A stretch of 64,000 bases of DNA from assembly GCF_050003625.1 (NCBI RefSeq), contig NC_134398.1, forward strand, positions 21,986,622-22,050,621, in the 5' to 3' direction. The notes under the pieces were generated by a model. That model was not told the DNA's origin and made no database searches. It saw nothing but the letters and a program-made list of their open reading frames with translations. The DNA is from Haematobia irritans (taxonomy: Eukaryota > Arthropoda > Insecta > Diptera > Muscidae). Position 1 is the first letter of the stretch; every line of letters begins with the position of its first letter. The translations under genes were made by a program, and so were the position numbers. Positions 3,216-60,886 of this stretch are shown piece after piece.

Positions 3216-3232
3216 TATAAATTAAATTAAAA

Positions 3233-10400: not shown

Positions 10401-11060
10401 AAATCAAATGTTGAGCAAATGTTCTATAGAAATAAAATTTTGACAAAATTTTTTATAGAAATAAGATTTTGACAAATTTTTCTATAGAAAGAAAATTTTG
10501 ACAAAAATTTCTATAGAAGACAAATTTTGATAAAATTTTCTAAAAAAATGAAATTTTGACAAAATTTTCTATAGAAACAAAATTTTGACAAATTTTTCTA
10601 TAGAAAGAAAATTTTGACAAACATTTCTATTGAAAGAAAATTTTGACAAAAGTTTCTATAAAAGTCAAATTTTGACTAAATTTTCTGTAGAAATAAAATT
10701 TTGGCAAAATTTTCTCTAGAAATCAAATGTTGACAATGTTTTCTATAGAAATAATTTTTTTGACAAATTATTCTATTGAAATAAATTTTTGACGAAATTT
10801 TCTATAGAAATTAAATTTTGACAACATTTTCTATGGAAATAAAATTTTGATAAAATTTTCCATAGAAATAAAATTTTGACAAAATGTTCTATAGAAATGA
10901 AATTTTGAGACAATTTCCTATAGAAAAACTTTGACAAAAATTTCTATGGAAATAAAATGTTGACAAAATTTTCTATAGAAATTAATTTTCAAAAATTTTT
11001 CTGTAGAAATAAAATAACTGTTGACAAAATGGAAATAATGAAATAAAATATTGACAAAGA
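7481..11060 (+). repeat. 29-bp satellite array 2 (diverged ATAAAA subtype)
   Basis: Over a hundred diverged units of TTTTCTATAGAAATAAAATT plus TTGACAAAA. Compared with array 1 it is heterogeneous, with many indels. A variant cluster (TTTCTAAGAAAATCAAATG, then AGCAAATGTTCTATG) recurs near 7757, 7950, 8330, 8525 and 10397, which indicates block duplications. No gene lies inside. Confidence 0.93.
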
Positions 11061-13459: not shown

Positions 13460-14955
13460 GTTCTAAATTCTACCAAAAATGGTAGATTTTTTACTGCTTG
13501 TAGATTGGTAGACTTCTTGAAGTTTTGGTAGATTTTCCAAAATATTCCTCTCCAACTATAGAAAAAAAATTTTTAACAAACTTTTCTGTACAAGGTTAGG
13601 TTAGGTTAGGTTAGGTTATGTGGCAGCCCGATGTATCAGGCTCACTTAGACTATTCAGTCCATTGTGATACCACAGTGGTGAACTTCTCTCTTATCACTG
13701 AGTGCTGCCCGATTCCATGTTAAGCTCAATGACAAGGGACCTCCTTTTTATAGCCGAGTCCGAACGGCGTTCCACATTGCAGTGAAACCACTTAGAGAAG
13801 TTTTGAAACCCTCAGAAATGTCACCAGCATTACTGAGGTGGGATAATCCACCGCTGAAAAATTTTTTGGTGTTCGGTCGTAGCAGGAATCGAACCCACGA
13901 CCTTGTGTATGCAAGGCGGGCATGCTAACCACTGCACCACGGTGGCTCCCTTTTCTGTACAAGTAAAAATGTTGACAAAATTTTCTATAGAAATACAATA
14001 ATAAATAAAATTTTGACAAAATTTCTACAGAAATAAATTTTCAAAAAATGTTGGCAAAATATTCTATAGGAATAAAATATCGACAAAATTTTCTATAGAA
14101 ATAAAATTTTGACAAAATTTTCTGTATAAATAAAATTGTGACAAAATTTTGAAATAAATAAAGTTTTCACAAAATTTTCATCAGAAATAAAATTTTGACA
14201 AAATTTTCTACAAAAACAAAATTTTGACAAAATTTTCTACAAAAATAAAATTCTGACAAAATTTTCTACAGAAATAAATTTTTAAAAAATGTTGGCAAAA
14301 TATTCTATAGGAATAAAATATCGACAAAATGTTCTATAGAAATAAAATTTTGACAAAATTTTCTGTATAAATAAAATTTTGACAAAATTTTCTATAGAAA
14401 TAAAATTTTGACAAAATTTTCTATAGAAATAAAATTTTGACACATTTTCTGTAGAAATAAAATTTTGATAAAGTTTTCTGTATAAATATAATTTTGGCAA
14501 AATTTTGTACAAAAATAAAATTTTGAAAAAATTTTCTACAGAAATAAAATGTTGAAAAACTTTTCTATAGAAATAAAATTTTGACAAAATTTTCTATAGA
14601 AATAATATTTTAACAAAATTTTCTATAGAAATAAAATTTTGACAAAATTTCTACAGGAATAAATTTTTAAAAACTTTTCTGTAGAAATAAAATTTTGGCA
14701 AAATATTCTATAGGAATAAAATATCGACAAAATTTTCTATAGAAATAAGATTTTGACAAAATTTTGTGTATAAATAAAATTTTGGCAAAATTTTCTACAA
14801 AAATAAAATTTTGACAAAATTTTCTACAAAAATAAAATTTTGACAAAATTTTCTACAGAAATAAAATTTTGAAAAAATTTTCTACAGAAATAAAAATTTG
14901 ACAAAATTTTCTACAGAAATAAAATTTTGACAAAATTTTCTATAAAAGTACAAAG
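13460..14955 (+). repeat. 29-bp satellite array 3 (split by a SINE)
   Basis: Units of TTTTCTATAGAAATAAAATT plus TTGACAAAA, entered from the left through the ACCAAAAATGGTAG boundary sequence. The SINE at 13595-13949 interrupts the array and duplicated 14 bases of satellite. A block ending AATATCGACAAAATTTTC recurs near 14060, 14310 and 14720. Confidence 0.92.
13581..13963 (-). mobile_element. Full-length tRNA-derived SINE with 14-bp target duplication
   Basis: The SINE occupies 13595-13949 and is flanked by identical 14-bp copies of CTTTTCTGTACAAG (13581-13594 and 13950-13963). Read on the minus strand it begins GCCACCGTGGTGCAGTGGTT (A-box-like), has a pol III B box GGTTCGATTCC, an internal body, and a GGTTAGG-rich 3' end (CCTAACC in sense). 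It belongs to the family represented at least nine times here. Its last 75 bases match the LINE tail at 32660-32737. Propagation by LINE machinery is an inference from that match. Confidence 0.9.
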
Positions 14956-17099
14956 GTTATAATAGGAGAGTTCAAAATAAATAATTATGCAAGTACTGAA
15001 ATAAACTACTAAAATAAAATAATGAAACATTTCTTTGGACGAAAAAAATCCTATTAATCACAAAAATGTGGTATGTTTGACACTTAAAAATGTTTTTTTT
15101 TTAAATTTTGTAGATTTTTGGTAAAATTTTCTATAGAAATAAAATTTTAACAAAATTTTTTGTACTAATAAAAATTTTGACAAAGTTTTCTATAGAAATA
15201 AAATTTGAACACAATTTTCTATAGAAATAAAATTTGGACATAATTTTCTATGGAAACAAAATTTGAAAAAATTTTTCTAAATTATAATAGGAGAGTTTCT
15301 ATATAATAAAAAGTTTATACATAATAATAATTTTGACAAAGTTTTCTATAGAAATACAGTTTGAACATAATTTTCTATAGAAACAAAATTTGGACATAAT
15401 TTTGTATGAAGATAAAATTTGAACAAATTTTTCTATAGAAATAAAATTTTGGAAAAATTTTATATAGAAATAAAATTTTGGCAAAATTTTCTATTGCATT
15501 AAAATTTGAACACAATTTTTTATACAAATAAAATTGTGACACAATTTTGTATACAAATAAACTTTTCACAAAATTTTCTATAGAAATAAAATTTGACAAC
15601 ATGTTCTATAGAAATAAAATTTTGACAAAAATCTATAGAAATAAAATTTTGATAAAATTTTCTATAGAAATTTTACAAAATTGTCTATAAAACGAAAATT
15701 TTGACAAAATTTTAGTATTATAGACAATTTTGTAAGTAAAATTCTTTCTATAGAAGTAAATAGTAGAAATAAAATGTTGAAAAGATTTTCTATAGAAATA
15801 AAATATTGGCATAATTTGCTATAAAAATATACTGTTGACGAAATTTTCTATTGAAATAAATTTTGAGAAATTTTTCTATAGAAATAAAATTTAGAGAAAA
15901 TTTTCTATAGACATAAAATGTTGACAAAAGTTTATATAGAAATAAATTTTTTTTTAGAAATAAAATTTTGGGAAAATTTTTTATACAAATAAAATGTTGA
16001 GAAAATTTTCTATAGAGATAAAATTTTGACAAAATTTTCTATAGAAATATCATAAAAGTTCTTAGTGATACTGAATTTTCTGTAGAATTGAGTTGTAATA
16101 AAATTGGCTATAGAAATAAAATTTTGACAAAATTTTCTAAAGAAATAATATTTTGGCAAAATTTTCTATAGAAATAAAATTTTGAAAAAATTTTCTACAG
16201 AAATAAAATTGTGACAAAATTTTCTATAGAAATAAAATTTTGACAAAATTTTTTATAGAAATAAAATTTTAACAAAATTTTCTATAGAAATAAAATTTTG
16301 ACAAAATTTTAAAAAATTTTCTGTAGAAATAAAATTTTGGCAAAATATTCTATAGGAATAAAATCTTGGCAAAATTTTCTATAGAAATAAGATTTTGACA
16401 AAATTTTCTGTATAAATAAAATCTTTGCAAAATTTTCTACAAAAATAAAATTGTGACAAAATTTTCTACAAAAATAAAATTTTGACAAAATTTTCTACAG
16501 AAATAAAATTTTGACAAAATTTTCTTCACAAATAAAATTTTGACAAAATTTTCTTCAGAAATAAAGTTTTGACAAAAATTCTCTACAAAAATTAAATTTG
16601 AATTTTGAAAAAATTTTCTACAGAAATAAAATTTTGACAAAATTTTCTGTGTAAATAAAATTTTGACAAAATTTCATACAGAAATAAAATTTTGACAAAA
16701 TTTTATACAAAAATAAAATTTTGACAAAATTTTCTACAAAAATTAATTTTTGACAAAATTTTCTACAAAAATAAAATTTTGAAAAAATTTTCTGCAAAAA
16801 TAAAATTTTGGCAAAATTTTCTACAAAAATAAAATTTTGAAAAAATTTTCTACAGAAATAAAATTTTGACAAAATTTTCTATAGAAATAAAATTTTAACA
16901 AAATTTTCTATAAAAATAAAATTTTAACAAAAGTTTCTACAGAAATAAAATTTTGACAAAATTTTCTACAAAAATAGAATTTTGAAAAAAATTGCTACAG
17001 ACAAAAAATTTTGACAAAATTTTCTATAAATGTACAAATGTTGACAAAAGTTTATATAGAAGTAAAACTCTTGATAAAATTATCTATAGAAGTTAAATT
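14956..17099 (+). repeat. 29-bp satellite array 4 with a duplicated spacer
   Basis: The array starts with a unique spacer (GGTTATAATAGGAGAGTTC and about 140 bases after it) that recurs at 17662 with the same satellite variants after it, so 14956-16070 and 17662-18690 are copies offset by about 2.7 kb. The rest is diverged satellite. Unit variants with TTTGAACATAATTTTC mark the duplicated block. Apparent ORFs such as 15375-15602 (-) are repeat translation. Confidence 0.9.
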
Positions 17100-17662: not shown

Positions 17663-20290
17663 TTATAATAGGAGAGTCCCAAATAATGCAAGTACTGAAA
17701 TAAAATACTAAAATAAAATAATGAAACATTTCTTTGGATGAAAAAAAAAATCATATTAACCACAAAAATTTGGTCAGAAATAAAATTTTGACAAAATTGT
17801 TTGTACTAATAAAAATTTTGACAAAGTTTTCTATAGAAATAAAATTTGAACATAATTTTCTTATAAAAATAAAATTTGGATATAATTTTCTATGGAAATA
17901 AAATTTGAACAAATTTTTCTATAGAAATAAAATTTTATATAGAAATAAAATTTTACCAAAATTTTCTTTTGCATTAAAATTTGAACAATTTTTTTTATAG
18001 AAATAAATTTGTGACACAATTTTCGATAGAAATAAACTTTTGACAACATCTCTATAGAAATAAAATTTTGACAAAAATTTCTATAAATATAAAATGTTGA
18101 CATAATGTTCAATAGAAATAAAGCTTGACAAAATTTTCTATAGATATAAAATTTTGACAACATTTTCTATAGAAATAAAATTTTTACAAAATTTTCTATA
18201 GAAATAAAATTTTGACAAAATTTCTATAGAAATAAAATTTTGACAAAATTTTCTATAGAAATAAAATTTTGACAAAATTTTCTATAGAAATAAAAAAATT
18301 TACAAACTTGTCTATAAAAAGAAAATTTTTACTAAATTTTAGTTTTATAGACAATTTTGTAAGTAAAATTCTTTCTATAGAAGTAAATAGTAGAAATAAA
18401 ATTTTGAACAGATTTTGTTTAGAAATAAAATATTGACAACATTTGCTATAAAAATATACTGTTGACGAAATTTTCTATAGAAATACATTTTGAGAAAATT
18501 TTCTATAGAAATAAAATTTAGAGAAAATTTTCTATAGACATAAAATTTTGACAAAAGTTTATATAGAAATAACATTTTCTTTAGAAATAAAATTTTGCGA
18601 AAATTTTTTGATAGAAATAAAATATTGAGAAAAATTTCTATAGAAATAAAATTTTGACAACATTTTCTATAGAAATATCATAAAAGTCCTTAGTGATATT
18701 GACAAAATTTTCTGTAGAATTAAATAGTAATAAAATTTTCTATAGAAATAAAATTTTGACAAAATTTTCTATAGAAATAAAATTTTGACAAAATTTTCTA
18801 TAGAAATAAAATTTTGACAAAATTTTCTATAGAAATAAAATTTTGACAAAATTTTTTATAGAAATAAAATTTTGGCAAAATTTTCTATAGAAATAAATTT
18901 TTGACAAAATTTTCTATGGAAATAAAATTTTGGCATTTTCTATGGAAATAAAATTTTCTATAGAAATAAATTTTGACAAAATTTTCTATAGAAATAAAAT
19001 TTTGACAAATTTTTTTATAGAAATAAAATTTTGGCAAAATTTTCTATGGAAATAAAATGTTGACAAAATTTTCTATAGAAATAAAATTTTGACAAAATTT
19101 TCGATAGAAATAAAATTTTGACAAAAATTCCAATAGAAATAAAATTTTGACAAAATTTTCTATAGAAATAAAATTTTGACAAAATTTTCTATAGAAATAA
19201 AATTTTGACAAAATTTTCTACAGAAATAAAATTTTGGCAAAATTTTCTATAGAATTACAATTTTGACAAAATTTTCTATAGAAATAAAATTTTGAAAAAA
19301 TTTTCTATAGAAATACAATTTTGACAAAATTTTCTATAGGAATGTCATAAAAGTTCTTAGTGATATAGACAAAATTTTCTGTAGAATTAAATTGTAATAA
19401 AATTTTCTATAAAAATACAATTTTAACAAAATTTTCTGTAGAAATAAAATTTTGACAAAATTTTCTATAGAAATAAAATTTTGACAAAATTTTCTATAGA
19501 AATAAAATTTTGACAAAATTTTCTATAGAAATAAAATTTTGGCAAAATTTTCTATGGAAATAAAATTTTGACAAAATTTTTTATAGAAATAAAATTTTGG
19601 CAAAATTTTCTATGGAAATAAAATGTTGACAAAATTTTCTGTAGAAATAAAATTTTGACAAAATGTTCGATAGAAATAAAATTTTGACAAAATCTTCTAT
19701 AGAAATAAAATTTTGACAAAATTTTCTATAGAAATAAAATTTTTACAAAATTTTCTATAGAAATACAATTTTGACAAAATTTTCTATAGAAATAAAATTT
19801 TGACAAAATTTTCTATAGAAATACAATTTTTACAAAATTTTCTATAGGAATGTCATAAAAATTCTTAGTGATATAGACAAAATTTTCTGTAGAATTAAAT
19901 TGTAATAAAATTTTCTATAAAAATACAATTTTAACAAAATTTTCTATAGAAATAAAATTTTGACAAAATTTTCTATAGAAATAAAATTTTGGCAAAATTT
20001 TCTATGGAAATAAAATGTTGACAAAATTTTCTGTAGAAATAAAATTTTGACAAAATGTTCGATAGAAATAAAATTTTGACAAAATCTTCTATAGAAATAA
20101 AATTTTGACAAAAAATTCTATAGATATAAAATGTTGACAAAATGTTCTAGAGAAATAAAGCTTGACAAAATTTTCTATAGAAATAAAATTTTTACAAAAT
20201 TTTGTAAAAAAATAAAATGTTGACAAAATTTTCTATAAAAATAACATTTTGACAAAATTTTCTATAGAAATATCATAACTATTCTTAGTG
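17663..20290 (+). repeat. 29-bp satellite array 5 with higher-order blocks
   Basis: A continuation of the satellite. A marker segment (TCATAAAAGTTCTTAGTGAT followed by TAGAATTAAATTGTAATAAA) recurs near 16055, 18670, 19342, 19852 and, truncated, 20271. The 19342 and 19852 copies are 510 bp apart, so the array grows by block duplication as well as by single units. The central part (18720-19830) is very homogeneous. Confidence 0.92.
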
Positions 20291-22099: not shown

Positions 22100-23335
22100 C
22101 CGATATGGACAATTTTTTAGATTTTCTAAAAATAATCTTATTTTGCAAAATTTTTTTCTATAGAAAATTTTGTCAAAATTGTATTTCTCTAGGAAATTTT
22201 GTCAAAATTTGATTTCTATAGGAAATTTTGTCAAAATTGTATTTCTATAGAAAATTTTGTCAAAATTTTATTTCTATAGGAAATTTTGTCAAAATTGTAT
22301 TTCTCTAGGAAATTTTGTCAAAATTTTATATCTATAGGAAATTTTGTCAAAATCTTATTTCTATAGGAAATTTTGTCAAAATTTTATTTCTATAGGAAAT
22401 TTTGTCAAAATTGTATTTCTATAGAAAATTTTGTCAAAATTTTATTTCTATAGGAAATTTTGTCAAAATTTTATTTCTATAGGAAATTTTGTCAAAATTT
22501 TATTTCTATAGGAAATTTTGTCAAAATTGTATTTCTATAAAAAATTTTGTCAAAAATTTAATTTCTATAGGAAATTTTGTTAAAATTTAATTTCTATAGG
22601 AAATTTTGTCAAAATTTTATTTCTATAGGAAATTTTGTCCAAATTGTATTTCTATAGAAAATTTTATCAACATTTTATTTCCAAAGGAAATTTTGTCAAA
22701 ATTGTATTTCTATAGAAAATTTTGTCAAAATTTTATTTCTAAAGAAAATAAAAAAATGTTGTCAAAATTTTATTCCTATAAAATATTTTGTCAACATTTT
22801 ATTTCCATAGAAAATTTAGTCAAAAATTTATTTCTATAGAAAGTTTTGTCAAAATTTTATTTCTATAAGAAATTTTGTCAAAATTTTATTTCTATAGGAA
22901 ATTTTGTCAAAATTTTATTTCTATAGGAAATTTTGTCCAAATTGTATTTCTATAGAAAATTTTATCAACATTTTATTTCTAAAGGAAATTTTGTCAAAAT
23001 TGTTTTTCTATAGAAAATTTTGTCAAAATTTTATTTCTAAAGAAAATAAAAAAATTTTGTCAAAATTTTATTTCCATAGAAAATTTTGTCAAAAATTTAT
23101 TTCTATAGGAAATTTTGTCAAAATTGTATTTCTATAGAAAATTTTGTCAAAATTTTATTTCTAAAGAAAATAAAAAAATTTTGTCAAAATTTTATTTCTA
23201 TAGGAATTTTTGTCAAAAAAGAAAACGTTGTCAAAATTTTATTTCTATAGAAAATTTTGACGAAATTTTATTTCTATAGAAAATTTTGTCAACATTTTTT
23301 TTTTAAGAATATTTTGTCAAAATTTTATTTCATTC
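22100..23335 (-). repeat. 29-bp satellite array 6, minus orientation
   Basis: About 40 units of TTTCTATAGGAAATTTTGTC plus AAAATTTTA, with the subtype marker GGAAATTTT. Two near-identical blocks of about 300 bp (22606-22840 and 22904-23137) show block duplication. The array resumes at 28805 after the Penelope complex, so the retroelements landed inside it. Confidence 0.93.
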
Positions 23336-26659: not shown

Positions 26660-26734
26660 GATTATGAGTTAGTTACGTGCTTTTATTATTTTTCAATAGA
26701 AGATACAGTTCGGCAGGCTATCCGATGTTTCTTA

Positions 26735-28721: not shown

Positions 28722-28804
28722 AAGCATACTTTTCCTCTGTTGGTTAAGCTACACTTGTAGTTTAGTCAATGCATGGCTTTAAGCTGAGATCAAAAACAAC
28801 AATA
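28722..28804 (-). repeat. Right arm of the 83-bp inverted repeat
   Basis: The inverse of 23370-23452 with very few mismatches (for example GCTTTAAGC against GCTTAAGGC). 29-bp satellite resumes directly after it. Confidence 0.8.
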
Positions 28805-29025
28805 AAATTTTATTTGTATAGAATGTTTTGTCAAAATTTTATTTCTATAGAAAATTTTGTCAAAATTTTATTTCTATACAAAAGTTTGTCAAAATTTTAG
28901 TTATATAGTAAATTTTGTCAAAATTTTATTTTTTATAGAAAACGTTGTCAAAATTTTATTTCTATTGAAAATTTTGACGAAATTTTATTTTTATAGAAAA
29001 TTTTGACAAAATTTTATTTCTTCAC
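28805..29025 (-). repeat. 29-bp satellite array 6, continuation
   Basis: About seven minus-orientation units, the remainder of the array at 22100-23335 beyond the Penelope insertion. It ends at a short (AT)n run, and the minisatellite region follows. Confidence 0.85.
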
Positions 29026-34765: not shown

Positions 34766-34769
34766 TTTT

Positions 34770-35875: not shown

Positions 35876-35979
35876 TCCATAGTCTGGAAGCCTACTACAA
35901 TAATCAGTCTAGGAGTTGTGGTGAGTCCATCTCAGTTCTCGCTTATCCTGTTAAAGATCTTCCTGTAGGATTACCTCAT

Positions 35980-38535: not shown

Positions 38536-38984
38536 ACTACTGCACCACAATGGCGGTCGAATTTTTCTCTTTGGCTTTACTTTACAGCTTTCAGTGAGAT
38601 GTTGAAGGCTTTGGAAATCCACTCCATCGCTTGTTTGATATCATAGTTGCCTCTTGTTATACCCTCCATCATAGGATGGGGGTATATTAACTTTGTCATT
38701 CCGTTTGTAACACATCGAAATATTGCTCTAAGACCCCATAAAGTATATATATTCTGGGTCGTGGTGAAATTCTGAGTCGATCTAAGCATGTCCGTCCGTC
38801 CGTTCGTCCGTCTGTTGAAATCACGCTATCTTCCGAACGAAACAAGCTATCGACTTGAAACTGGGCACAAGTAATTGTTATCGATGTAGGTCGGATGGTA
38901 TTGAAAATGGGCCATATCGGTCCACTTTTACGTATAGCCCCCATATAAAGGGACCCTCAGATTTGGCTTGTGGAGCCTCTAACA

Positions 38985-39980
38985 GAAGCATATTTCATCC
39001 GATCCGGCTGAAATTTGGTATATGGTGTTGGTATATGGTCTCTAACAACCATGCAAAAATTGGTCCACATCGGTCCATAATTATATATAGCCCCCATAAA
39101 AACCGATCCCCAGATTTGGCTTGCGGAGCCTAAAATAGAAGCAAATTTCATCCGATCGGGCTGAAATTTGGTACATGGTGTTGGTATATGGTCTCTAACA
39201 ACCATGCAAAAATTGGTTCACATCGGTCTATAATTATATATAGCCCCCTTATAAACCGATCCCCAGATTTGGCTTGCGGAGCCTCAAAGAGAAGAAAATT
39301 TCATCCGATCCGGCTGAAACTTGGTACATGATGTTGGTATATGGTCTCTAACAACCATGAAAAAATTGGTCCATATCGGTCCTTAATTATATATAGCCCC
39401 CATATAAACCGATCCCCAGATTTGGCTTGTGGAGCCTCTAAGAGAAGCATATTTCATCCGATCCGGCTGAAATTTGGTACATGGTGTTGGTATATGGTCT
39501 CTAACAATCATGTAAAAATTGGTCCACATCGGTCCATAATTATATATAGCCCTACATAAACCGATCCCCCGAATTGGCTTGCGGAGCCTCAAAGAGAAGC
39601 AAATTTCATCCGATCCGCCTGAAATTTGGTACATGATATTGGTATGTGGTCTCTAACAACCATGCAAAAATTGGTCCACATCGGTTCATAATTATATATA
39701 GCCCCCATATTAACCGATCCCCAGATTTGGCTTGCGAAGTCTCCAAGAGAAGCAAATTTCATCCAATCCGGTTGTAATTTGGAACATGGTGTTAGTATAT
39801 GATCTTTAACAACCGTGCCAGAATTGGTCCATATCGGTCCATAATTATATATAGCCCCCATATAAAACATTCTCCAGATTTGACCTCCGGAGCCTCTTGG
39901 AGGAGCAAAATTCATCCGATCCGGTTCAAATTAGGCACGTGGTGTTAGTATATGGTCGCTAAGAACCATACCAAAATTGG
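38985..39980. repeat. 153-bp tandem repeat inside the Helentron-like element
   Basis: The word GTATATGGTCTCTAACAACC recurs at about 39031, 39184, 39338, 39490, 39643 and 39796, a period of 152-154 bp. Each unit carries GGTCCATATCGGTCC, ATAATTATATATAGCCCCCA and GCTTGCGGAGCCTC words. Because 153 is three times 51, both strands give long repetitive ORFs; I treat these as non-coding. Confidence 0.9.
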
Positions 39981-40049
39981 TCCAATCACACAAAAATTGG
40001 TCCATATGGGTTCATAATCATGGTTGCCACTAGAGCCAAAAATAATCTA

Positions 40050-40545
40050 CCAAAATTTTATTTCTATAGAAAATTTTGTCAAAATTTTATTTCTATAGAA
40101 AATTTTGTCAAAATTTTATTTCTAGAGAAAATTTTGTTAAAATTTTATTCGGTTCATAATAAAATTTTCATCATTGTCAAAATTTTATTTCTATAGAAAA
40201 TTTTGTCAAAATTTTATTTCTATAGAAAATTTTGTTCAAATTTTATTCGGTTCATAATCATGGTTGCCACTCGAGCCAAAAATAATCTACCAAGATTTTA
40301 TTTCTATAGAAAATTTTGTCAAAAATTTATTTCTATAGAAAATTTTGTTAAAATTTTATTGCTGTAGAAATTTTTGTCAAAATTTTCTTTCTATAGAAAA
40401 TTTTGTCAAAATTTTTATTTCTATAGAAAATTTTGTCAAAATTTTTATTTCTATAGAAAATTTTTGTGAAAATTTTATTTCTATAGAAAATTTTGTTAAC
40501 ATTTTATTTCTGTAGAAAATTTTGTCAAAATTGTATGTCTACTTT
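40050..40545 (-). repeat. 29-bp array within the Helentron-like element
   Basis: About 15 minus-orientation units between the boundary word and the element tail. The boundary itself (TTCATAATCATGGTTGCCAC and on) is duplicated at 40014 and 40255, which splits the array into two blocks and shows that boundary plus array can duplicate together. Confidence 0.88.
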
Positions 40546-40788
40546 GTCAAACTGAATTATATACGTATTGGATCGATCTTTTTTGATTTAATATATACCA
40601 CGTATGGACTTACATACAATTTAGAAGATGGTGTTAGGAGGTTTTAAGATACCTTGCCATCGGCAAGCGTTACCGCAACTTAAGTAATTCAATTGTGGAT
40701 GGCAGTGTTTAGATGAAGTTTCTACGCAATCCATGATGGAGGGTACATAAGCTTCGGCCTGGCCGAACTTACGGCCGTATATACTTGT

Positions 40789-41685
40789 CTTTCCATTATC
40801 ATATTGAATGATGATAATGGAACCTGTACTGATTCCATTCAGTTTAATTCACAAATTTCATAGATTCGTATTCTAAATTTAAATAAAAAATATAAATCCA
40901 TTTTTTGAACTATTTTTTACAATTTCTTTTTTTTTTTTAAGAAAGTTGTCCTTAATAATTTGTCCAGGTTTCATAATCTTTCATATTAGATCAATATTGT
41001 TTTTCAGTGTTCATTGTTCCAATGAAATAGTTAATATCTTTTCTGTGCAGAATCTTAAACGATGGCTTAACTTTCATAACCTATGATACAATGTTTAATG
41101 ACCATTTTTCTTATTTCGTTTTTATTTCCCATGCTTATATCATCATGTACATAGTTTTATGCTTTATTGTAATTCTCTTATCTTAAAAGCATTTTATTAT
41201 TTTTTAAGATTAATTTTCATGATAACCCACATAGCCTAACAGACAATTTTTGGCCAATGCTTTCTTTTCGCGATATTTATTGCAGCCTAGAGGCATATAG
41301 AGAACCCTCAAGTTTTATGGAAGGTCATGATATTACATGAAAGTTTTATATCTCAATTTTCTACTTCTTATGTTTTCTTGATTGTATTTAACTGTATTTG
41401 CATTTGTAGTTTATATCGGTTTTGTGGGCATTTGGGGTTTCAATGGCTTTAAGCCATTTCTTTTTCTCACATAAAGGCGATATATACAAATATGTTGCAT
41501 ACATTCCAAGATAATGTCATTCCTAAATTGAGATGTAAATTTTCGAAAGAATTGTTATTTAATATGGTTAAAAATATTTGATGATCATATAAATTTGAAC
41601 AACAACTTAGTGAATGGAAAAATGTCTGATTCATTGTAGTTATCAATTTAAAATAAATAAATTTTCTTATAGATTTATATAGTTA
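40789..41685. other. Unique AT-rich DNA, no gene recognised
   Basis: Non-repetitive and AT-rich with stops in all frames. A short inverted match (TTCCATTATCATATTGAA / GATGATAATGGAA) follows the Helentron-like tail at 40790-40825. Nothing else is supported. Confidence 0.5.
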
Positions 41686-41689
41686 AAAT

Positions 41690-42005
41690 TATTGTTATAG
41701 AAATACAATTTTGGTACAAATATAATGTTGTCAAAAATTTAATTCTATACAAAATGTTGCCAAATGTTTATTTCTATAGAAAATTTTGTCAAAATTTTAT
41801 CTCTTATTATTTTTTATTTTTATTCAAAATTTAATTTCTATAGAAAATTTTGTTAAAATTTTATATCTATAGAAAATTTTGTCAAAATTTTATTTCTATA
41901 GAAAATTTTGTCACCATTTTATTTCTATAGAAAATTTTGTCAAAATGTTATTTCTATAGAAAATGTTGTCAAAATTTTATTTCTATAAAAAATCTTATCA
42001 AAATT
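41690..42005 (-). repeat. 29-bp satellite, minus block before an inversion point
   Basis: About ten minus-orientation units ending near 42005, where orientation flips within one unit (CAAAATTTTGTTTCAATAGA, then AATTAAATTTTGATAAAATT). Confidence 0.85.
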
Positions 42006-45000
42006 TTGTTTCAATAGAAATTAAATTTTGATAAAATTTTCTATAGAAATAAAATTTTAACATAATTTTATATAGAAACAAAATTTTGACAAAATTTTCT
42101 ATAGAAATAAAATTTTGACAAAATTTTCTATAGAAATAAAATGGTGCAAAATTTTCTATAGAAATAAAATTTTGACAAAATTTTCTATAGAAATAAAATT
42201 TTAACAAAATTTTCTATAGAAATAAATTTTTTCTATAGAAATAAGGGCAACATTTTGTATAGAATTAAATTTTTGACAATATTTTCTACAGAAATAATTT
42301 TTTTATAAAAATAAAATTTTGACAAAATTTTCTATAGAAATAAAAGTTTGTTTCAATTTTCAAACAAAAATACAATTTTGGCAAAATTTTCTATAGAAAT
42401 AAAATTTTGACAAAATTGTCTATAGCAATACATCCATAAAAATAAAATTTTCTATAGAAATGACAATTTGATAAAATTTTCTATACAAATAACACTTTAA
42501 CAAAATTTTCTATAGAAATAAAATTTTTACAAAATTTTCTATAGAAATACAATTTTGACAAACGTTTCAATAGAAATTAAATTTTGATAAAATTTTTTAT
42601 AGAAATAAAATTTTGACATAATTTTCTATAAAAACAATATGTTGACATACTTTTCTATATTTTTTTTTTCTAATGAAATAAAATTGTGACAAAATTTTTA
42701 TAGAAATAAAATTTTCATAAAAATTTCTATCAAAATAAAATGTTGACATTCTTTTCCATAGAAATAAAATGTTGACAAAATTTTCTATAGAAATAAAATT
42801 TTCTATAGAAATAAAAATTTCTATAGAAATAAAATTTTCTATAGAAATAAAATTTTCTATAGAAATAAAATTTTGACAAAATTTTCTATAGAAATAAAAT
42901 ATTGATAAAACTTTCTATAAAAATAAAATTTTGACAAAAATTTCTGTAAAAATAAAATTTTTTTATAGAAATAAAATTTGATAAAATTTTCTATAGAAAT
43001 AAAATGTTGACAAAATTTTCTATAGAAATAAAATATTGACAAAATTTTCTATAGAAATAAGATTTTTATCAAAATTTTCTATAGAAATAAAATATTGACG
43101 AAATTTTCTATAAAAATAAAAATTTGACAAAAATTTCCGTAAAAATAAAAAATAAAATTTGACAAAATTTTCTATAGAAATAAAATGTTGACAAAATTTT
43201 CTATAGAAATAAAATTTGGACAAAATTTTGTATAGAAACAAAATTTTCTATAGAAAAAGAGTTTAGACAGTTTTTTCTGTAAAAATACGATTTTAACAAA
43301 ATTTTCTATAGAAATAAAATTTTATTCTGATTATTAATTTTGTTCGGCTTGAGGTCATAGATTATTGATTTGTTGTAATATTTATTTCCAATATTTCGGT
43401 TAGTGCCACTAACCATCTTCTGGGATTTTGTATGTGAGTTCGTGTGATGCTGCTCGTTCTGCAAGTCACCGTAAAAAATTTTTATAGAAATAAAATTTTG
43501 ACAAAATTTTCTATAGAAATAAAATTTTAACAAAATTTTATACAGAAAAAAAAATTTGAATAAAAATTTTCTATAGAGATAACATTTTTACAAAATTTTC
43601 TATAGAAATAAACTTTTGCCAACATTTGGTATAGAATTAAATTTTCTATAGAAATAAAATTTTTATAAAAATAAATATTTGACAAAATCTTCTATAGAAA
43701 TAAAAGTTTGACAAAGTTTTCAAAGGAAATACAATTTTGACAAAATTTTCTATGGAAATAAAATTTTGATAAAATTTTCTATAGAACTAAAATGTTGAAA
43801 AAATTTTTATAGAAGTAAATTTTTGACAAAATTGTCTATAGCAATACATCCATAAAAATAAAATTTTCTATAGGAAGAAAATGGTGACAAAATTTTCTAT
43901 AGAAATAAAATTTTTTATAGAAATACAATTTTGACATAATTTTCTATAAAAATAAAATGTTGACATACTTTTCTATAAAAAAATTTTTTCTATAGAAATA
44001 AAATGTTTGCAAAATTTTCTATAGAAAAATTTTTTCTTTAGTTTTATTTGACACAATTTTCTATAGAAATAAAATATAGACAAAAGTTTCTATAGAAATA
44101 AAATGTTGACAAAATTGTCTATAGCAATACATCCATAAAAATAAAATTTACTATAGAAATAACATTTTGACAAAATTTTCTGTAGAAATAAGTTTTTTAC
44201 AAAATTTTCTATAGAAATAAAATTTTGACATAATTTTCTATAAAAATAAAATGTTGACATACTTTTCTATAAAAAAATTCTAAGAAATAAAATTTTGACA
44301 AAATTTTTATAGAAATAAAATTTTAATAAACATTTTTATCAAAATAAAATGTTGTTATTCTTTTCTATAGAAATAAAATTTTGGCAAAATTTTCTATAGA
44401 AACAAAATTTTCTATAGAAATAACATTTTTATCAAAATTTTCTATAGAAATAAAATATAGACAAAATTGTCTATAAAAAAAAATATTGACAACATTTTCT
44501 ACAGAAATAAAATTTTGACAAAATTTTCTATAGAACTAAATTTTTGACGAAATTTTCTATAGTAATAACATTTTGGCAAAATACTCTATAGAAATAAAAT
44601 TTTGAAAAAAAATTCTATAGAAATACAATTTTGACAAAATTTTTTACAGAAATAAAATTTTGACATCATTTTCGATAGAAATAAATTTTTGACAAAATTT
44701 TCAATAGAAATAAAATTTTGACAAAATGTTCTATAGAAATAAAGTTTTGTCAACATTTCCTATAGAAATAAAATTTTAACAAAATTTTCAATAGAAATAA
44801 AATTTAGACAAAATTTTCTATAGAAATACAATATTGGCAAAATTTTCTATAAAAATAAAATTTTGACAAAATTTTCTATAAAAATAAAATTTTGACAAAA
44901 ATTTCTGTAAAAATAAAATTTTGACAAAATGTTCTATAGAAATAAAGTTTTGTCAACATTTTCTATAGAAATAAAATTTTAACAAAATTTTCTATAGAAA

Positions 45001-46196
45001 TAAAATGTTGACAAAATTTTCTATAGAAATAAAATATATACAAAAGTTTCTATAGAAATAAAATGTTGACAAAAAAATACATCCATAAATATAAAATTTT
45101 CTATAGAAATTTTCTTAAAAATAACATTTTGACAAAATTTTTTATAGAAATAAATTTGTTACAAAATTTTCTATAGAAATAAAATGTTGACATAATTTTC
45201 TATAAAAATAAAATGTTGAAATACTTTTCTATAAAAAAATTCTAAGAAGTAAAATTTTGACAAAATTTTTATAGAAATAAAATTTTAATAAAAATTTCTA
45301 TAAAAAATAAATTTTGTTATTCTTTTCTATAGAAATAAACTTTTGGCAAAATTTTCTATAGAAACAAAATTTTCTTTAGTTTTATTTGACAAAATTTTCT
45401 ATAGAAATAATATTTTTATCAAAATGTTCTATAGAAATAAAATATAGACAAAATTGTCTATAAAAAAATATATTTACAAAATTTTCTACAGAAATAAAAT
45501 TTTGACAAAATTTTCTATAGAACTAAATTTTTGACAAAATTTTCTATAGTAATAACATTTTGGCAAAATACTCTATAGAAATAAAATTTTGACAAAAATT
45601 TCTATAGAAATACAATTTTGACAAAATTTTTTACAGAAATAAAATTTTGACATCATTTTCTATAGAAATAAATTTTTGACAAAATTTTCAATAGAAATAA
45701 AATGTTGACAAAATTTTCTATAGAAATACAATATTGACAAAATTTTCTATAAAAATAAAATTTTGACAAAAATTTCTGTAAAAATAAAATTTTGACAAAA
45801 TGTTCTATAGAAATAAAGTTTTGACAACATTTTCTATAGAAATAAAATTTTAACAAAATTTTCTATAGAAATAAAATGTTGACAAAATTTTCTATAGAAA
45901 TAAAATTTTAACAAAATTTTCTATAGAAATAAAATGTTGACAAAATTTTCTATAGAAATAAAATTTTCTTTAAATAAAATTTTGACAAAATTTTCTATAG
46001 AAATAAATTTTTCTATGTAAATAAAATTTGGACAAAATTTTCTATATAAACAAAATTTTGACAAAATTTTCTATAGAAAAAGAGTTTAGACAATTTTTTC
46101 TAAAGAAAAAATACAATTTTGACAAAAGTTTCTATAGAAATAAAATGTAAAAAAAAACCTATAGAAATAAAATTTTGACAAAATTTTCTAGTAAGT
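42006..46196 (+). repeat. 29-bp satellite array 7, plus orientation
   Basis: About 140 diverged units. Marker variants (ACATCCATAAAAATAAAATTT; TTCTAAGAAATAAAATTTTG; TGTTATTCTTTTCTATAG) recur about 0.96 kb apart (for example 44350 and 45313), so a block of nearly 1 kb was duplicated. It is interrupted by a Penelope-type fragment at 43321-43475. Beyond the array, at about 46199-46222, a piece of the Helentron head appears inverted (CCCATCCTATGATG). Confidence 0.92.
43321..43475 (-). mobile_element. Orphan Penelope pseudo-LTR fragment with hammerhead-like motif
   Basis: A 155-bp non-satellite island. Minus-strand reading gives CCCAGAAGATGGTTAGTGGC, then ACTAACCGAAATATTGG: a CUGANGA-like box (CAGAAGA, one change), stem GGTTAGTG/CTAACC and GAAA, in the hammerhead order. 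The layout matches the pseudo-LTRs at 24-28 kb, but the sequence belongs to a different family. No coding part remains. Confidence 0.5.
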
Positions 46197-47710: not shown

Positions 47711-47714
47711 GTCA

Positions 47715-50700
47715 AAATTTTATTTCTATATTCCATAGAAAATTTTGTCAAAATTTTATTCCTATAGAAAATTTTGTCAATATTTTATTTCTATAAAAAA
47801 TTTTCTCACAATTTCATTTTTATAGAAAATTTTGTCACAATTTTATTTCTATAGAAAATGTTGTCAAAATTTTATTTCTATAGAAAAATTTTATTTCTAT
47901 AGAAAATTTTGTCAAAATTTTATTCCTATAGAAAATTTTGTCAAAATTTTATTTCTAAAGAAAATTGTGTTAAATTTTATTCCTATTAATAATTTTGTCA
48001 AAATTTTATTTCTATAGAAAATTTTGTCAAAATGTTATTTCTATAGAAAATTTTCTCCAAATTTGTCATGTTATTTCTATAGAAAATTTTGTCAAAATTT
48101 TATTTCTATAGAAAATTTTGTCAAAATTTTATTTCTATAGAATATTTTGTCAAAATTTTATTTCTATAGAAAATTTTGTCAAAATTTTATTTCTATAGAA
48201 AAATTTTTCAAAATGTTATTTCTATAGAAAATTTTGTCAAATTGTTATTTCTATAGAAAATTTTCTCCAAATAGTATTTCTATAGAAAATTTTGTCAAAT
48301 TGTTATTTCTATAGAAAATTTTCTCCAAACTTTATTTCTATAGAAAATTTTGTCAAAATGTTATTTCTAGAGAAAATTTTGTCACATTGTTATTTCTATA
48401 AAAAATTTTCTCCAAATTTGTTATGTTATTTCTATAGAAAATTTTGTCAAAATTTTATTTCTGTAAGAAAATTTGTCAAAACGTTATTTCTATAGAAAAT
48501 TTTGTCAAAATTTTATTTCTATAGAAAATTTTGTCAAAATGTTGTTTCTATAGAAAATTTTGTCAAAATTTTATTTCTATAGAACATTTTTTCAAAATTT
48601 TATTTCTATAGAAAATTTTGTCAAAATGTTGTTTCTATAGAAAATTTTGTCAAAATTTTATTTCTATAGAAAATTTTGTCAAAATGTTGTTTCTATAGAA
48701 AATTTTCTCCAAATTTTATTTCTATAGAAAATTTCGTCAAAATATAGAAAATTTTGCCAAAATTTTATTTCTATTGAAAATGTTGCTAAAATTTTATTTC
48801 TATAGAAAATTTTGATAAAATTTTATTTCCATAGAAAATTTTGTCAATATTTTATTTCTATAGAACATTTTTTCAAAATTTTATTTCTACAGAAAATTTT
48901 TTCAAAACTTTATTTCTATAGAAAATTTTGTCAACATTTTATTTCTATTCAAAATTATGTCAAAATCTGGTTTCTAAAGAAAATTAAAAAATGTTTTCAA
49001 CATTTTATTTCTATAGAATATTTTGTCAACATTTTATTTCCATAGAAAATTTTGTCAAAATTTTATTTCTATAGAATTTTTTTTTCATTTCTAAGAAAAT
49101 TTTGTCAAAATTTTACTTCTATAGAAAATTTTGTCAAAATTTTATTTCTATAGAAATTTTTGTGAAAATGTTAATTCTAATGAAAATTTTGTCAAAATTT
49201 TATTTCTATAGAAAATTTTATCAAAATATTATTTCTATAGAAAATTTTGTCAAATTGTTATTTCTATAGAAAATTTTCTCCAAATTTTATTTCTATAGAA
49301 AATTTTGTCAAAATGTTATTTCTATAGAAAATTTTGTCACATTGTTATTTTTATAGAAAATTTTGCCAAAATTTTATTTGTATAGAAAATTTTGTTAAAA
49401 TTTTATTTCTACAGAAAATTTTGTCTAAATTTTATTTCTATAGAAAATTTTGTCAAAATTTTATTTCTATAGAAAATTTAGTCAAAATTTTATTTCTATA
49501 GAAAATTTAGTCAAAATTTTATTTCTATAGGAAATTTTGTCACATTGTTATTTTTTTACAAAATTTTGTCAAAATTTTATTTCTATAGAAAATTTTGTCA
49601 AAATGTTATTTCTAGAGAAAAATTTGTCACATTGTTATTTCTATAGAAAATTTTCTCCAAATTTGTTATGTTATTTCTATAGAAAATTTTGTCACATTGT
49701 TATTTCTATAAAAAATTTTGTCAAAATGTTATTTCTATAGAAAATTTTATCAAAATTTTATTTCTATAGAAAATTTTGTCAAAATTTAGTTTCTATAGAA
49801 AATTTTGTCAAAATTTTATTTCTATAGAAAATTTTGTCAAAATTGCATTTCTATAGAAATTTTTGTCAAAAATTTATTTCAAAAGAAAATGTTGTTAAAT
49901 TTTATTTCTATTGAAAATTTTGTCAAAATTTTATTTCTATAGAAAATTTTGTCAAAATGTTATTTCTATAGAAAATTTTGTCACATTGTTATTTGTATAG
50001 AAAATTTTGTCAAATTGTTATTTCTATAGAAAATTTTGTCAAAATGTTATTTCTATAGAATATTTTGTCAAAATTTTATTTCTACAGAAAATTTTGTCAA
50101 AATTTTATTCCTATACAAATGTTTGTCAAAATTTTGATTCTAAAGAAAATTTTGTCAAAATGTTATTTCTATAAAAAATGTTCTCCAAATTTTATTTCTA
50201 TAGAAAGTTTCGTCAAAATATAGAAAGTTTCGTCAAAATATAGAAAATTTTGCCAAAATTTTATTTCTATAGAAAATTTTGCTAAAATTTTATTTCTATA
50301 GAAAATTTTGCCAAAATTTTATTTTTATAGAAAATTTTGCTAAAATTTTATTTCTATAGAAGATTTTGTCAACATTTTATTTCTATAGAATATTTTGTCA
50401 AAATTTTATTTCTACAAAAAATTTCGTCAAAATATAGAAAGTTTCGTCAAAATATAGAAAATTTTGCCAAAATTTTATTTCTATAGAAAATGTTGCTAAA
50501 ATTTTATTTCTATAGAAAATTTTGCCAAAATTTTATTTCTATAGAAAATTTTGCTAAAATTTTATTTCTATAGAAAATTTTGTCAACATTTTATTTCTAC
50601 AGAAAATTTTGTCAAAATTTTATTCCTATACAATTTTTTGTCAAAATTTTGATTCTAAAGAAAATATTGTCAAAATTTTATTTCTAAAGAAAATTTTGTC

Positions 50701-50784
50701 AAAATTTTATTTCTACAGAAAATTTTGTCAAAATTTTATTTCCATATAAAATTGTGTCAAATTTCTATTTTTATGGTCACCAAA
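47715..50784 (-). repeat. 29-bp satellite array 8, minus orientation
   Basis: About 105 units of TTTCTATAGAAAATTTTGTC plus AAAATTTTA. Variant clusters (TTCTCCAAATTTGT and TGTTATTTCTATAG near 48051, 48408 and 49650; TTTCGTCAAAATATAGAAA near 48730, 50207 and 50430) show block duplication. Its right end is a truncated SINE. Confidence 0.93.
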
Positions 50785-52611: not shown

Positions 52612-52668
52612 GTAAGATTTGCAGCTAAATAAAGACGAGAAATTCACAAAGTTCTTTGTCATTTCCAG

Positions 52669-56169: not shown

Positions 56170-56719
56170 GGTACTCCGCAGCGCAGCATTCTGAACCAGA
56201 GGTTCCTCCGTTGGGTCTCGCTTATACTGAGAGTCCAAATGACAATCCCATAATCCAAAAAGACTCGTAAATCTTTTGAATCGTCCTCCAAGTGCTTCCA
56301 ACCAATGTCTTCAGAATTTTGCTTGTACTCACAACGTTCTTATCATTAATTTTCCTGTGTTTACCAAAGATGAACAGGGTATCTTTTTCGGGCATGCATG
56401 CTGATATTGATCTCCAGAGTTGTTCTACGACGCAAAAATAGTTTCGGGCCAGAAAATGAAAATGAGAATCGAAGGTGTGCATATTTCCGTGGACCTGCCT
56501 CACTCATTTTGCAAATATATGATGGTTCGTGGTTGCTGAGGATGTGTGAGCACATGTGCTGCAACATCCTCGCCGCCAACCTATATGGACCAGTTGCAGT
56601 GGAACACTTAGCGGCCTTTATCGTCTGGGGTACACACCACTGTTGCCACTCAAGTCAAAAACAATCTACTAAAATTTGGAGAAAATTTTACCAAAGAATT
56701 ACCAAACAAAGTAATGTTA

Positions 56720-59265
56720 TGTTGCAATATTTTATTTCTATAGAAAATTTTGTCAAAATTTTATTTCTTAAAAAAAGTTTGTCAAAATTTTATGTCTAAA
56801 TTTTTTTTTTCAAAATTTTATTTCTAAAAAAAATTGTCAAAATTTTATTTCTATAGAAAGTCTAGTCAAAATTTTGTTTCTATAGAAACTTTTGTCAAAA
56901 TTTTATTTCTATGGAAAATGTTGTCCAAATTTTATTTCTATAGAAATTTTTGCCAAAATTATATTTCTATAGAAAATTTTGTTAAAATTTTATTTCTACA
57001 GAAAATTTTGTCAAAATTTTATTTCCATAGGAAATTTTGTCAACATTTTATTTCCATAGGACATTTTGTCAAATGTGTATTTCTACAAACAGTTTTATCC
57101 AAATTTTATTTTACAGAAAATTTAGTCAAAATTTTATTTCAACAAAAATTTTGTCAAAATTTTATTTCTATAGAAAATATAGTCAAAAGTTTATTTCTGT
57201 AGAAAATTTTGCTAAAATTTCTTTTCTATGGAAAATTTTGTCAAAATTTTTCCTATAGAAAATTTTGTCAAAAATTTTTCTATAGAAAGTTTTGTTCAAA
57301 TTTTATTTCTATAGAAAATGTTGTCCAAATTTTATTTCTACAGAAAATTTTGTCCAAATTTTATTTCTACAGAAAATTTTGTCAAAATTTTATTACTATA
57401 GAAAATTGTATTAAAATTTTGTCCAAATATTATTTCTACAGAAAATTTTGTCAAATTTTTATTCCCATAGAAAATTTTGTCAAAATTTTATTCCCATAGA
57501 AAATTTTGTCAAAATTTTATTCCCATAGAAAATTTTGTCAAAATTTCATTCCCATAGAAAATTTTGTCAAAATTTTATTCCCATAGAAAATTTTGTCAAA
57601 ATTTTATAGACAACTTTGTCAATATTTTTTTCTATATAAAATTTTATCAAAATTTCATATTTATAGAAAATTTTGTCAACATTTTATTTCTATAGAAAAT
57701 TTTGTCAAAATTTTATTTCTATAGAAAATTTATTTTTATAGGAAATTTTATTTCTACAGGCAATTTTGTGAAAACTTTATTCCCATAGAAAATTTTGTCA
57801 ACATTTTATTTCAATAGAAAACTTTGTTCAAATTTGTTTTCTATCGAAATTTTTGTCAAAATTGTATTTCTATAGACAACTTTGTCAATATTTTTGTTCT
57901 ATAGACAATTTTATCACAATTTCATTTCTATGTCAAAATTTTGTCAAAATTTATTTCATATAAAAAATTTTGTCAAAATTGTACTTCTAAAAAAAATTTT
58001 ATCAAAATTTTATTTTTAAAAAAATTTTGTCAAAATTTTATTTTTATAGAAAGATTAGTCAAAATTTTATTTCTATAGAAAATTTTGTCAAAATTTTATT
58101 TCTATAGAAAATGTTGTCAAAATTTTATTTCTATAGAAAATTTAGTCAAAATTTATTTTTATAGGAATTTTTGTCAAAATTTTATTTCCATAGGAAATTT
58201 TTTCAACATTCTATTTCTATAGAAAATGTTGTCAAATTTTTATTTCTACTAACAGTTTTATAAAAATTTTATTTTACAGAAAATTTTGTCAAAATTTTAG
58301 TTTTACAGAAAATTTTGTCAAAATTTTAGTTTTACAGAAAATTTTGTCAAAATTTTAGTTTTATAGAAAATTTTGTCAAAATTATATTTCCATAGAAAAA
58401 TATGCCGAAATTTTATTTCTATAGAAATTTTTTTTCAAAATTTCATTTCTATAGAAAACTTTTTCAAAATTTTATTTTTATAGAAAGTGTTGTCAAAATT
58501 TTATTTCTATAGAAAATACAGTCAAAAATTTGTTTCTGTAGAAAATTGTGCTCAAATTTCTTTTCTATAGAAAATTTTATCAAAATTTTGTTTCTATAGA
58601 AAATTTTGTCTAAATTTTGTCTATAGAAAATATTGTCCAAATTTTATTTCTACAGAAAATTTTGTCCAAATTTTATTTCTATAGAAAATTGTATTAAATT
58701 TTTTTTTCAAATATTATTTCTACAAAAACGTTTGTCAAAATTTTATTCCCATAGAAAATTTTGTAAAATTTTTATTTCTATAGAAAATTTTGTTCAAATT
58801 TGTTTTCTATATAAAATTTTGTCAAAATTTTATTTCTATAGAAAATTTTGTCAAAATTTAATAACAATACTGTAATAATCTAACCATGTTAATCCAGTAC
58901 TATAATTTATAAGATGTAATCTTGTTGTACTGAAAATACCATTCGATAAATGAAATGAAATGAAATGAAATTTTATTTCTATAGGAAATTTTGTCAAAAT
59001 TTTATTTCTATAGAAAATTTTGTCCGAATTTTTTCTATAAAAAATTTTGTCAAAATTTTATCCCTATAGAAAATTTTGTCAAAATGTTATTTTTATAGAA
59101 ACTTTTGTCAAAACTTTTACTCTATAGAAAATTTGTCAAAATTTTATTTTTATAAAAAATTTTTTCAAAACTTTATTTCTATAGAAAATTTTGTCAAAAT
59201 TTTATTTCTTTGGAAAATGTTCTTTCTATAGAAATTGGTTCAAAATTTTATTTCTATAGACAGTA
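56720..59265 (-). repeat. 29-bp satellite array 9, in the ADAMTS-like intron
   Basis: About 85 minus-orientation units. The left boundary has GTTGCCACTCAAGTCAAAAA and ACCAAAGAATTACCAAAC, the same theme as in the Helentron-like element. The right boundary is AAATTTACCAGTTTTGG with ACCAATTAGG. A homogeneous run with ATTCCCATAGAAAATTTTG (57460-57600) is a local subtype. A LINE 3' end is inserted at 58859-58968. The 122-aa ORF at 56834 is repeat translation. Confidence 0.92.
58859..58968 (+). mobile_element. 5'-truncated LINE 3' end with (GAAAT)n tail
   Basis: A non-satellite island (ATAACAATACTGTAATAATC … ACCATTCGATAAATGAAATG) ending in about four GAAAT repeats and then returning to satellite. 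Short pentamer tails after a 3' UTR are usual for several insect LINE families. The family cannot be named from 100 bases. Confidence 0.5.
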
Positions 59266-59360
59266 AAAAATTTACCAGTTTTGGAAAAGTTCTACCAATT
59301 AGGACAAGCTGGTACACACTCCTGGCTTATGACCATAAACGTTCTCCTCCCGAGAATGAT

Positions 59361-60481: not shown

Positions 60482-60593
60482 ATTTTTTTGCGTTAGTTTA
60501 ACTACGGATTTTTTTCGGTGCGATCAGACGAATATCGACATTTTCCCACAGGCAATTATATTTGAATAAATCTTTTGTTTCTCGTTACCAGTG

Positions 60594-60665
60594 TTGCAGG
60601 CACGGCCAAAAATATTCTACCAAAATTGGAAGATAATTTTACCAAAAAACTACCAAATACAAAAA
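60594..60665. repeat. Isolated boundary module of the 29-bp arrays
   Basis: GTTGCAGGCACGGCCAAAAA, ATTCTACCAAAATTGG and ACCAAAAAACTACCAAATAC are the boundary words that precede the 29-bp arrays at 56641 and in the Helentron-like element, but here no array follows. Confidence 0.5.
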
Positions 60666-60886
60666 ATCGTATTTTTCAATTTTTATTTCCTACACAATAG
60701 GATAGGACAATAGGATCGATGTAACACATCGAAATATTGCTTTAAGACCCCATAAAGCATATATATTTGGGATCGTCGTGAAATTCTGAGTCGATCTAGC
60801 CACGTCCGTGCGTCGTCTGTTGAAATCACGCTAACTTCCGAACGAAATAAGCTATCGACTTGAAACTTGGCACAAGTAGTTGTTAT

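Follow-up and report, generated by a model that had tools for sequence, protein, structure and literature searches.

The short word that adjoins 29-bp satellite arrays in Haematobia irritans, previously read as an internal boundary of a rolling-circle element, is the 5' terminus of a separate transposon with terminal inverted repeats (TIRs) that carries the 29-mers as its body. The stretch of DNA from which this was recognized, referred to here as the window, comprises 64,000 nucleotides of contig NC_134398.1 (assembly GCF_050003625.1, positions 21,986,622 to 22,050,621). A first-pass annotation of the window had proposed that a rolling-circle-type element seeded the satellite, which then expanded into large arrays. 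It is highly probable, rather, that the satellite of a hAT-like element was inserted into a non-autonomous Helentron (HINE), was truncated there and spread with its new carrier, and that free copies grew by local amplification. Both kinds of element, target duplications, full insertions, uninterrupted sites, abundant truncated composites and array-specific monomers are observed in the assembly.

In the history proposed, the 29-bp satellite would form the interior of a cut-and-paste transposon that is non-autonomous and most likely hAT-like, one copy of which would have inserted into a 153-bp unit of the HINE, duplicating TTCATAAT. Deletions, perhaps occurring between A/T-rich repeats, would then have cost the insertion its 3' end and the distal part of its leader, leaving a short array flanked by what remained of the 5' end and by the tail of the Helentron. 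Because the composite keeps the Helentron ends, its subsequent spread was presumably of the rolling-circle type and would have placed boundary and array at roughly 33,000-40,000 places. Separately, free hAT-like copies would have developed into kilobase arrays by local amplification, with many losing their ends; the arrays that now show no end would share this origin, their ends having decayed or been lost.

The recipient is, by its structure, a HINE. Elements of the HINE/DINE-1 type are described as carrying sub-terminal inverted repeats of 12-15 bp, set in by 2-4 nt at the 5' end and by 38-60 bp at the 3' end, together with a palindrome near the 3' end, and as inserting between T-rich flanks (PMC4067079). 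Sub-terminal inverted repeats and a 3' palindrome are found in the window copy at 38659-40788 (Table 1), and T-rich flanks among the copies collected, where TT directly precedes 17 of 17 heads and T directly follows 25 of 28 tails. The first-pass description of the 29-mer array as having a fixed place inside a Helentron/DINE-like element, between boundary word and tail, is borne out by the order mapped in both window copies, 38659-40788 (boundary word at 40013-40051, tail at 40542-40790) and 203-1330, and the satellite is indeed carried and dispersed by mobile elements. A head, 153-bp units, boundary and array, and the tail in whole or in part, are present in all eight loci first fetched by the exact boundary word; in one of them, L006, array units also lie ahead of the boundary. 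The duplication of the boundary reported at about 40014 and 40255 is likewise present, mapped at 40013 and 40253. As two boundaries are also found in L001 and L009, and the left flank of the duplicate type in L006 and L023, this duplication is an inherited trait of a sub-family and no local event.

Table 1. Positions in the window of the Helentron copies, the hAT-like element and its parts, and the 29-bp arrays.
Feature	Positions	Strand	Remarks
Non-autonomous Helentron (HINE/DINE-1-like) with captured array	38659..40788	+	head, 153-bp repeats, boundary, array and tail mapped
Helentron 5' sub-terminal inverted repeat, 13 bp	38660..38672	+	exact reverse complement at 40733-40745
Helentron 153-bp tandem repeats	38918..39984	+	TRF, 7.1 copies
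TTCATAAT, left target-site duplication copy	40011..40018	+	right copy present in L043-L046
hAT-like 5' terminus remnant ("boundary word")	40019..40051	+	distal half of leader missing
29-bp array inside Helentron, 491 bp	40051..40541	+	second boundary copy at 40253-40291
Helentron 3' sub-terminal inverted repeat	40733..40745	+	43 nt from 3' end
Helentron palindrome, 15 bp	40753..40767	+	21 nt before 3' end
Second Helentron copy, 5' part (head) missing	203..1330	+	same part order; array 752-1051
Complete hAT-like satellite element, 2,674 bp	56638..59311	+	leader and trailer HMM matches; 3' TIR degraded
Target-site duplication GTACACAC, left copy	56630..56637	+	
Target-site duplication GTACACAC, right copy	59312..59319	+	
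29-bp array of complete hAT-like copy	56725..59260	+	79/80 mapped units in leader polarity
hAT-like 3' terminal module	7406..7540	-	end of array 7481-11058; nhmmer E 1e-27; among the 14 profile seeds
hAT-like 3' terminal module	13465..13594	-	beyond array 13951-17099; nhmmer E 7e-30; among the profile seeds
hAT-like 5' leader without array	60590..60681	+	E 2e-15; not counted as complete terminus; Helentron fragment at 60720
29-bp array, 3,578 bp, with hAT-like 3' end	7481..11058	-	
29-bp array	13951..17099	-	hAT-like 3' module 357 bp beyond end
29-bp array	3228..6330	-	no Helentron or hAT-like end found
29-bp array	17762..20272	-	neither end type found
29-bp array	22121..23331	+	neither end type found
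29-bp array, short	28804..29021	+	neither end type found
29-bp array, 4,532 bp	41659..46190	-	neither end type found; opposite-polarity units at left (window) end
29-bp array	47711..50774	+	neither end type found

The TIR element ends in CACGGTTGCCAC...GTGGCAACCGTG between 8-bp target duplications, and its plan consists of a CACGGTTGCCACTCGAGCC-leader, a 29-mer array, a 3' module of ~130 bp and GTGGCAACCGTG. A boundary ahead of the array at 56725, present as the first-pass annotation had it, is of a longer version, found also in L012, L015 and L027, in which up to ~85 bp of leader precede the 29-mers. The part of this leader that is absent from the common Helentron copies has 4,934 matches genome-wide and the 3'-end pattern of the element has 11,869, the control being 0 in each case. 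Twelve of the 14 leader loci fetched have 400-bp left flanks unlike any other of the set, and the flanks end at one point, CACGGTTGCCAC, wherever the terminus is intact, the terminus being lost or altered in L029, L033, L034, L035, L038 and L039. The other two, L034 and L035, are overlapping loci within an array, where leader pieces without a terminus recur every 600-710 bp within units of opposite polarity, in the manner of a higher-order repeat.

Both ends can be paired in eight loci. The duplications are exact in three of these, namely L036, a complete 922-bp copy between GTTCAATT repeats, L046, and the window copy at 56638-59311; they show one mismatch in L041 and L043, two in L014 and one after a one-base shift in L015. 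No target duplication is present in L020, the two ends of which come from different elements. Free and Helentron copies agree in the polarity of the array with respect to the leader, apart from L034 and from L041, in which three units lie in leader polarity and 13 against it. A search for a satellite-free ancestor of the element returned no clear one, the eight weak matches at 2-3 mismatches including several that consist of an array end plus the 3' module.

These features alter the reading of several places in the window. Boundary words had been reported ahead of large arrays at about 7410 and 13470; none is found there when up to nine edits in 33 are allowed, and what had been taken for them is the minus-strand 3' terminal module of the TIR element (7540-7406 and 13594-13465), which at 7410 includes the inverted word GTTGCCAC. 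The boundary said to occur alone at 60594 does lack an array, but nearly the whole 5' leader is present there, followed by a Helentron fragment.

Assignment of the element to a superfamily draws on its ends and its target sites, and on 12-bp TIRs, 8-bp duplications and T at target position 2 it is therefore called hAT-like. The TIR (CACGGTTGCCAC/GTGGCAACCGTG) measures 12 bp as read across copies, single copies being imperfect, which falls within the short range of 10-25 bp given for the hAT superfamily (PMC8961557), and seven true pairs of duplications, exact to two mismatches, have the 8-bp length expected of hAT elements. In 15 independent target flanks, counted after rows with a terminus of more than three mismatches had been dropped, position 2 is T in 14 (P ~5e-7 at T = 0.30), but the A that Ac-type hAT elements would be expected to have at position 7 is seen in only seven. 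The hAT element Hermes is reported to prefer nTnnnnAn (PMC10368747), as is hobo, of the Ac family (PMC8961557). The donor probably works like a hAT MITE, its membership of the superfamily being likely rather than proven.

Another superfamily with duplications of ~8 bp, of the P, Mutator or foldback type, is an unlikely source of the element. Such an assignment would be in keeping with the failure to link a transposase to it, as a hAT transposase with these TIRs was found at none of the three loci inspected (of 150 domain matches scored among 1,677 candidates), and with the precedent of Tetris, a satellite-making foldback element with 8-10 bp duplications that its authors place in Mutator (PMC4079207); the inverted array of L041 also has a foldback look. 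The TIR length and the duplication length nevertheless fit hAT, as does the T that 14 of 15 flanks share with the second place of its nTnnnnAn pattern (PMC10368747, PMC8961557), and in place of the long inverted repeats of tandem units that mark a foldback, the units have one polarity in 12 of 12 cases in L036 and in 79 of 80 in the window copy. Nine hAT transposase matches of equal or near-equal score (C4:120984274, for example), eight of which lie in open frames of 598-600 codons, possibly represent a recent hAT family; the one copy of these that was read, L052, is without the TIR of the satellite element.

The relationship between the two elements is recorded at their junctions. The common composite junction, in which the 5' end and a short array are kept and the 3' end is lost, has 33,379 matches genome-wide. 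The far junction of an untruncated insertion, predicted beforehand as the 3' TIR followed by TTCATAAT and the remainder of the 153-bp unit, has 16, with a control of 0. Among the four loci read, L046 contains head, units, whole insertion and tail with its exact duplication; L043 has the same arrangement around its one-mismatch duplication, with its tail truncated by a further Helentron; in L045 an insertion with a damaged left end lies between units; and in L044 the right side alone is visible, after at least 1.4 kb of array. The uninterrupted site together with its distinctive following unit has 228 matches (control 0), and the three such loci read (L047-L049) are all without satellite, L048 and L049 showing both head and tail. 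That full insertions with the TTCATAAT duplication coexist with uninterrupted satellite-free sites points to the hAT-like element as having given the satellite to the Helentron.

In the window copy at 38659-40788, the target of the insertion is the partial last 153-bp unit that follows 38918-39984. The copy at 203-1330 is an intermediate, as its Helentron segment resumes after the array as in the full-insertion copy L043 (alignment score 116, with a maximum of 28 in 300 shuffles), and the copy at 38659-40788 has lost this post-array segment as well. Left junctions in 20 Helentron-embedded copies read TTCATAAT in 12 and one-base variants of it in three, the remaining five being unreadable. A single founding insertion would be in agreement with the junctions read, which concur on one site; because the search patterns for the common junction and for the full insertion both require that site, they cannot by themselves prove it. 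The mirror image of the main nesting is seen in L014 (1736-4354), where a hAT-like copy contains within its array a Helentron (2364-3912) that itself bears satellite.

The assembly comprises 1.17 Gb in 181 contigs, five of which, at 177-281 Mb each, contain most of it. When up to three mismatches are allowed, the boundary has 40,511 matches genome-wide, the tail end 61,730, the head 32,573 and one 29-mer 2,607,453; as the reversed-pattern controls are 0 genome-wide for all four words and the reversed 29-mer unit yields 0 bp of satellite in each of 29 sequences, the pattern of boundary and array is not due to chance. At this threshold the 29-mers alone total ~76 Mb, or 6.4% of the assembly. Arrays of 29-mers occur in 11 of 20 random 10-kb stretches and fill 13.0% of them (95% bootstrap interval 5.6-21.1%; reversed unit, 0 bp), the positions having been drawn from the five large contigs only and, in four of these, within the first 180 Mb only. 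The 29-letter repeat seems to make up about one-eighth of the genome, and the window, with a satellite content of 38.6%, is rich relative to the random stretches.

Arrays flanked by a Helentron account for 8 of the 29 arrays in the random stretches, yet for only 1,962 of their 25,996 bp of satellite (7.5%). Their median length is ~294 bp (n = 10, two of them from the window) versus ~1,182 bp for the other 30 in a set of 40 arrays that combines the 29 from random stretches with 11 from the window, a non-random sample. The profiles used to find leaders and trailers were built from 32 and 14 copies, respectively, many of which are among the loci later scored, so that hits in those loci arise partly by construction. 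Arrays of at least 700 bp make up 18 of the 40. A leader is found in 4 of the 16 with a visible 5' side, a 3' module in 4 of the 18 and at least one of these ends in 7 of 18; a Helentron flank is found in 0 of 18, and 11 of 18 have no end or flank of either kind. Among the 22 shorter arrays a hAT-like end is present in 12, counting Helentron copies, a Helentron flank in 10 and neither in 8.

With these numbers the first-pass proposal that the Helentron itself formed the 29-mer array and seeded the large arrays becomes very improbable. The fixed place of the array in the element invites it, as does the comparison of 33,379 Helentron-junction with 40,511 boundary matches, near-consensus boundaries being mostly embedded. 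The boundary is, however, the end of a transposon found free between unrelated flanks, which possesses a complete leader and a 3' end of its own and is bracketed by 8-bp target duplications, and Helentrons include both rare copies that keep the whole TIR insertion and satellite-free copies with the uninterrupted site. The Helentron was rejected as the source of the satellite on the two-sided insertion with its target duplication, on the uninterrupted sites and on the absence of any Helentron flank among the 18 large arrays; the small share of satellite in Helentron-flanked arrays of the random sample argues in the same direction. The first-pass annotation had named a lack of the boundary at most arrays as evidence against its proposal, and among the sampled arrays with a visible 5' side the 5' module is present in 13 of 37 and absent in 24. 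Nor did the monomers distinguish ancestor from descendant: compared over at most 1,200 bp per array, those in Helentrons (148 monomers) and in large arrays (722) share the same consensus, with mean divergences of 0.095 and 0.100 and no polarity.

Equally hard to credit is the independent capture of a pre-existing free satellite by both elements as filler DNA, a process discussed for Helentron-type elements (PMC7492417). Although it would suit the 19 of 40 arrays with neither end type, the Helentron copy and the free element share the TIR and ~30 bp of leader at the same edge of the array, and the element stands as a whole between the two copies of the target duplication in L043 and L046.

The account of a hAT-like donor extends less securely to the large arrays. 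As 11 of 18 large and 8 of 22 shorter arrays show neither end, a hAT-like origin is not shown for those. The nearest neighbor of a monomer lies within the same array at a frequency of 0.229 versus an expected 0.060, a difference reached in 0 of 200 permutations, and this resemblance within arrays fits local amplification. It is possible, if somewhat doubtful, that many large arrays spread without a transposon, by means such as extrachromosomal circles or recombination, and that the TIR element carried only some of them. Besides the 11 arrays with neither end, permissive profile searches at large-array edges lend themselves to this explanation, having returned only weak, uncounted matches (E 0.05-0.9), with none in reversed flanks; yet 7 of 18 retain an end although their monomers stand ~10% from the consensus, and at least one free copy (L014) has been split by a later insertion, which would hide an end from a short-range search.

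Several arrays are bordered by an imperfect palindromic repeat (23332-23812 and 28722-28805 in the window; 3720-3843, 4194-4709 and 6642-7073 in L018), which may be a third companion of the satellite. The segment 23441-23812 matches itself inverted at 86%, and in L018 an array plus a flanking segment is duplicated at 83.8%.

A single genome here displays the donor and the recipient, the target duplication, insertions that are intact and sites that are uninterrupted, so that the origin of Helentron central repeats becomes testable copy by copy. A boundary word shared by satellite arrays can also mislead as to which element is the source. In Drosophila, the central repeats of the DINE-1-like element DINE-TR1 have reportedly become satellites; there the Helentron is held to be the source, and here it is the recipient.

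That transposons can give rise to satellites is known from Tetris (PMC4079207), from miDNA4 (PMC12628747) and from Helentron-borne arrays (PMC7492417, PMC12628747). With HINE/DINE-1 elements as described (PMC4067079) the present Helentron shares the sub-terminal inverted repeats, the palindrome close to the 3' end, flanks rich in T and, in some copies, central repeats; it differs in that the 29-mers appear to have arrived with an inserted TIR element whose junctions are readable in rare copies. Cg_HINE of Crassostrea gigas is likewise associated with short satellite-like arrays borne by Helentrons and dispersed through the genome; two scenarios for the origin of the repeats are discussed for it, filler-DNA capture and formation from the element's own sequence (PMC7492417), whereas here a donor element and an insertion site are identified. 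Tetris/TIR-220 of Drosophila virilis, as reported, is also a non-autonomous DNA transposon with 8-10 bp duplications whose internal repeats gave kilobase satellite, but its repeats of ~220 bp lie inside foldback-like TIRs (PMC4079207), in contrast to the 12-bp TIRs and central 29-bp array of the present element, the array having apparently been passed to a Helentron. The Tc1/mariner MITE miDNA4 of Xenopus similarly has an internal array that varies in length and can outgrow the element, whose ends are then lost; it belongs to another superfamily, and the account cited, so far as it was available, describes no onward transfer to a rolling-circle element (PMC12628747). Also comparable by description is Helitron2_Cv of Calliphora vicina, an abundant DINE1-like Helitron of a calyptrate fly with related matches reported in Lucilia and Musca; the main text of the paper on it does not contain the words "tandem" or "satellite" (PMC3630058).

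In the literature searched, no account was found of this satellite or its transfer, and no case of one element class handing an array to another with the junctions readable. As a tentative generalization, non-autonomous Helentrons may acquire their central repeats when array-bearing cut-and-paste elements land in them, and satellites may pass by nested insertion from one transposon class to an unrelated one and then travel with the more prolific carrier; here, the satellite of a hAT-like element would have passed to tens of thousands of Helentrons, while array growth in the original vehicle would have built most of the satellite that fills about one-eighth of 1.17 Gb.

The window contains other features of interest. 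One reverse-transcriptase element occurs twice in inverted order, at 24179-26668 (-) and 27055-28083 (+); 23847-25512 matches 28723-27053 at 99.3%, and 23815-24149 recurs directly at 26735-27071 at 99%. In this element Pfam recognizes RVT_1 only; a GIY-YIG-like C terminus suggests that it may be Penelope-like. An open frame at 52633-53664 (+) has four thrombospondin type 1 (ADAMTS) stretches and is probably part of a host gene. Tandem repeats of other kinds are also present: G+C-richer repeats with 160-bp and 64-bp units, unlike the 29-mer, occupy 30688-32146, and short 19-bp repeats of the CGTGAGTCACGAAAAAT type are found 55 kb apart, at 1-45 and at 55129-55213 and 55483-55523.
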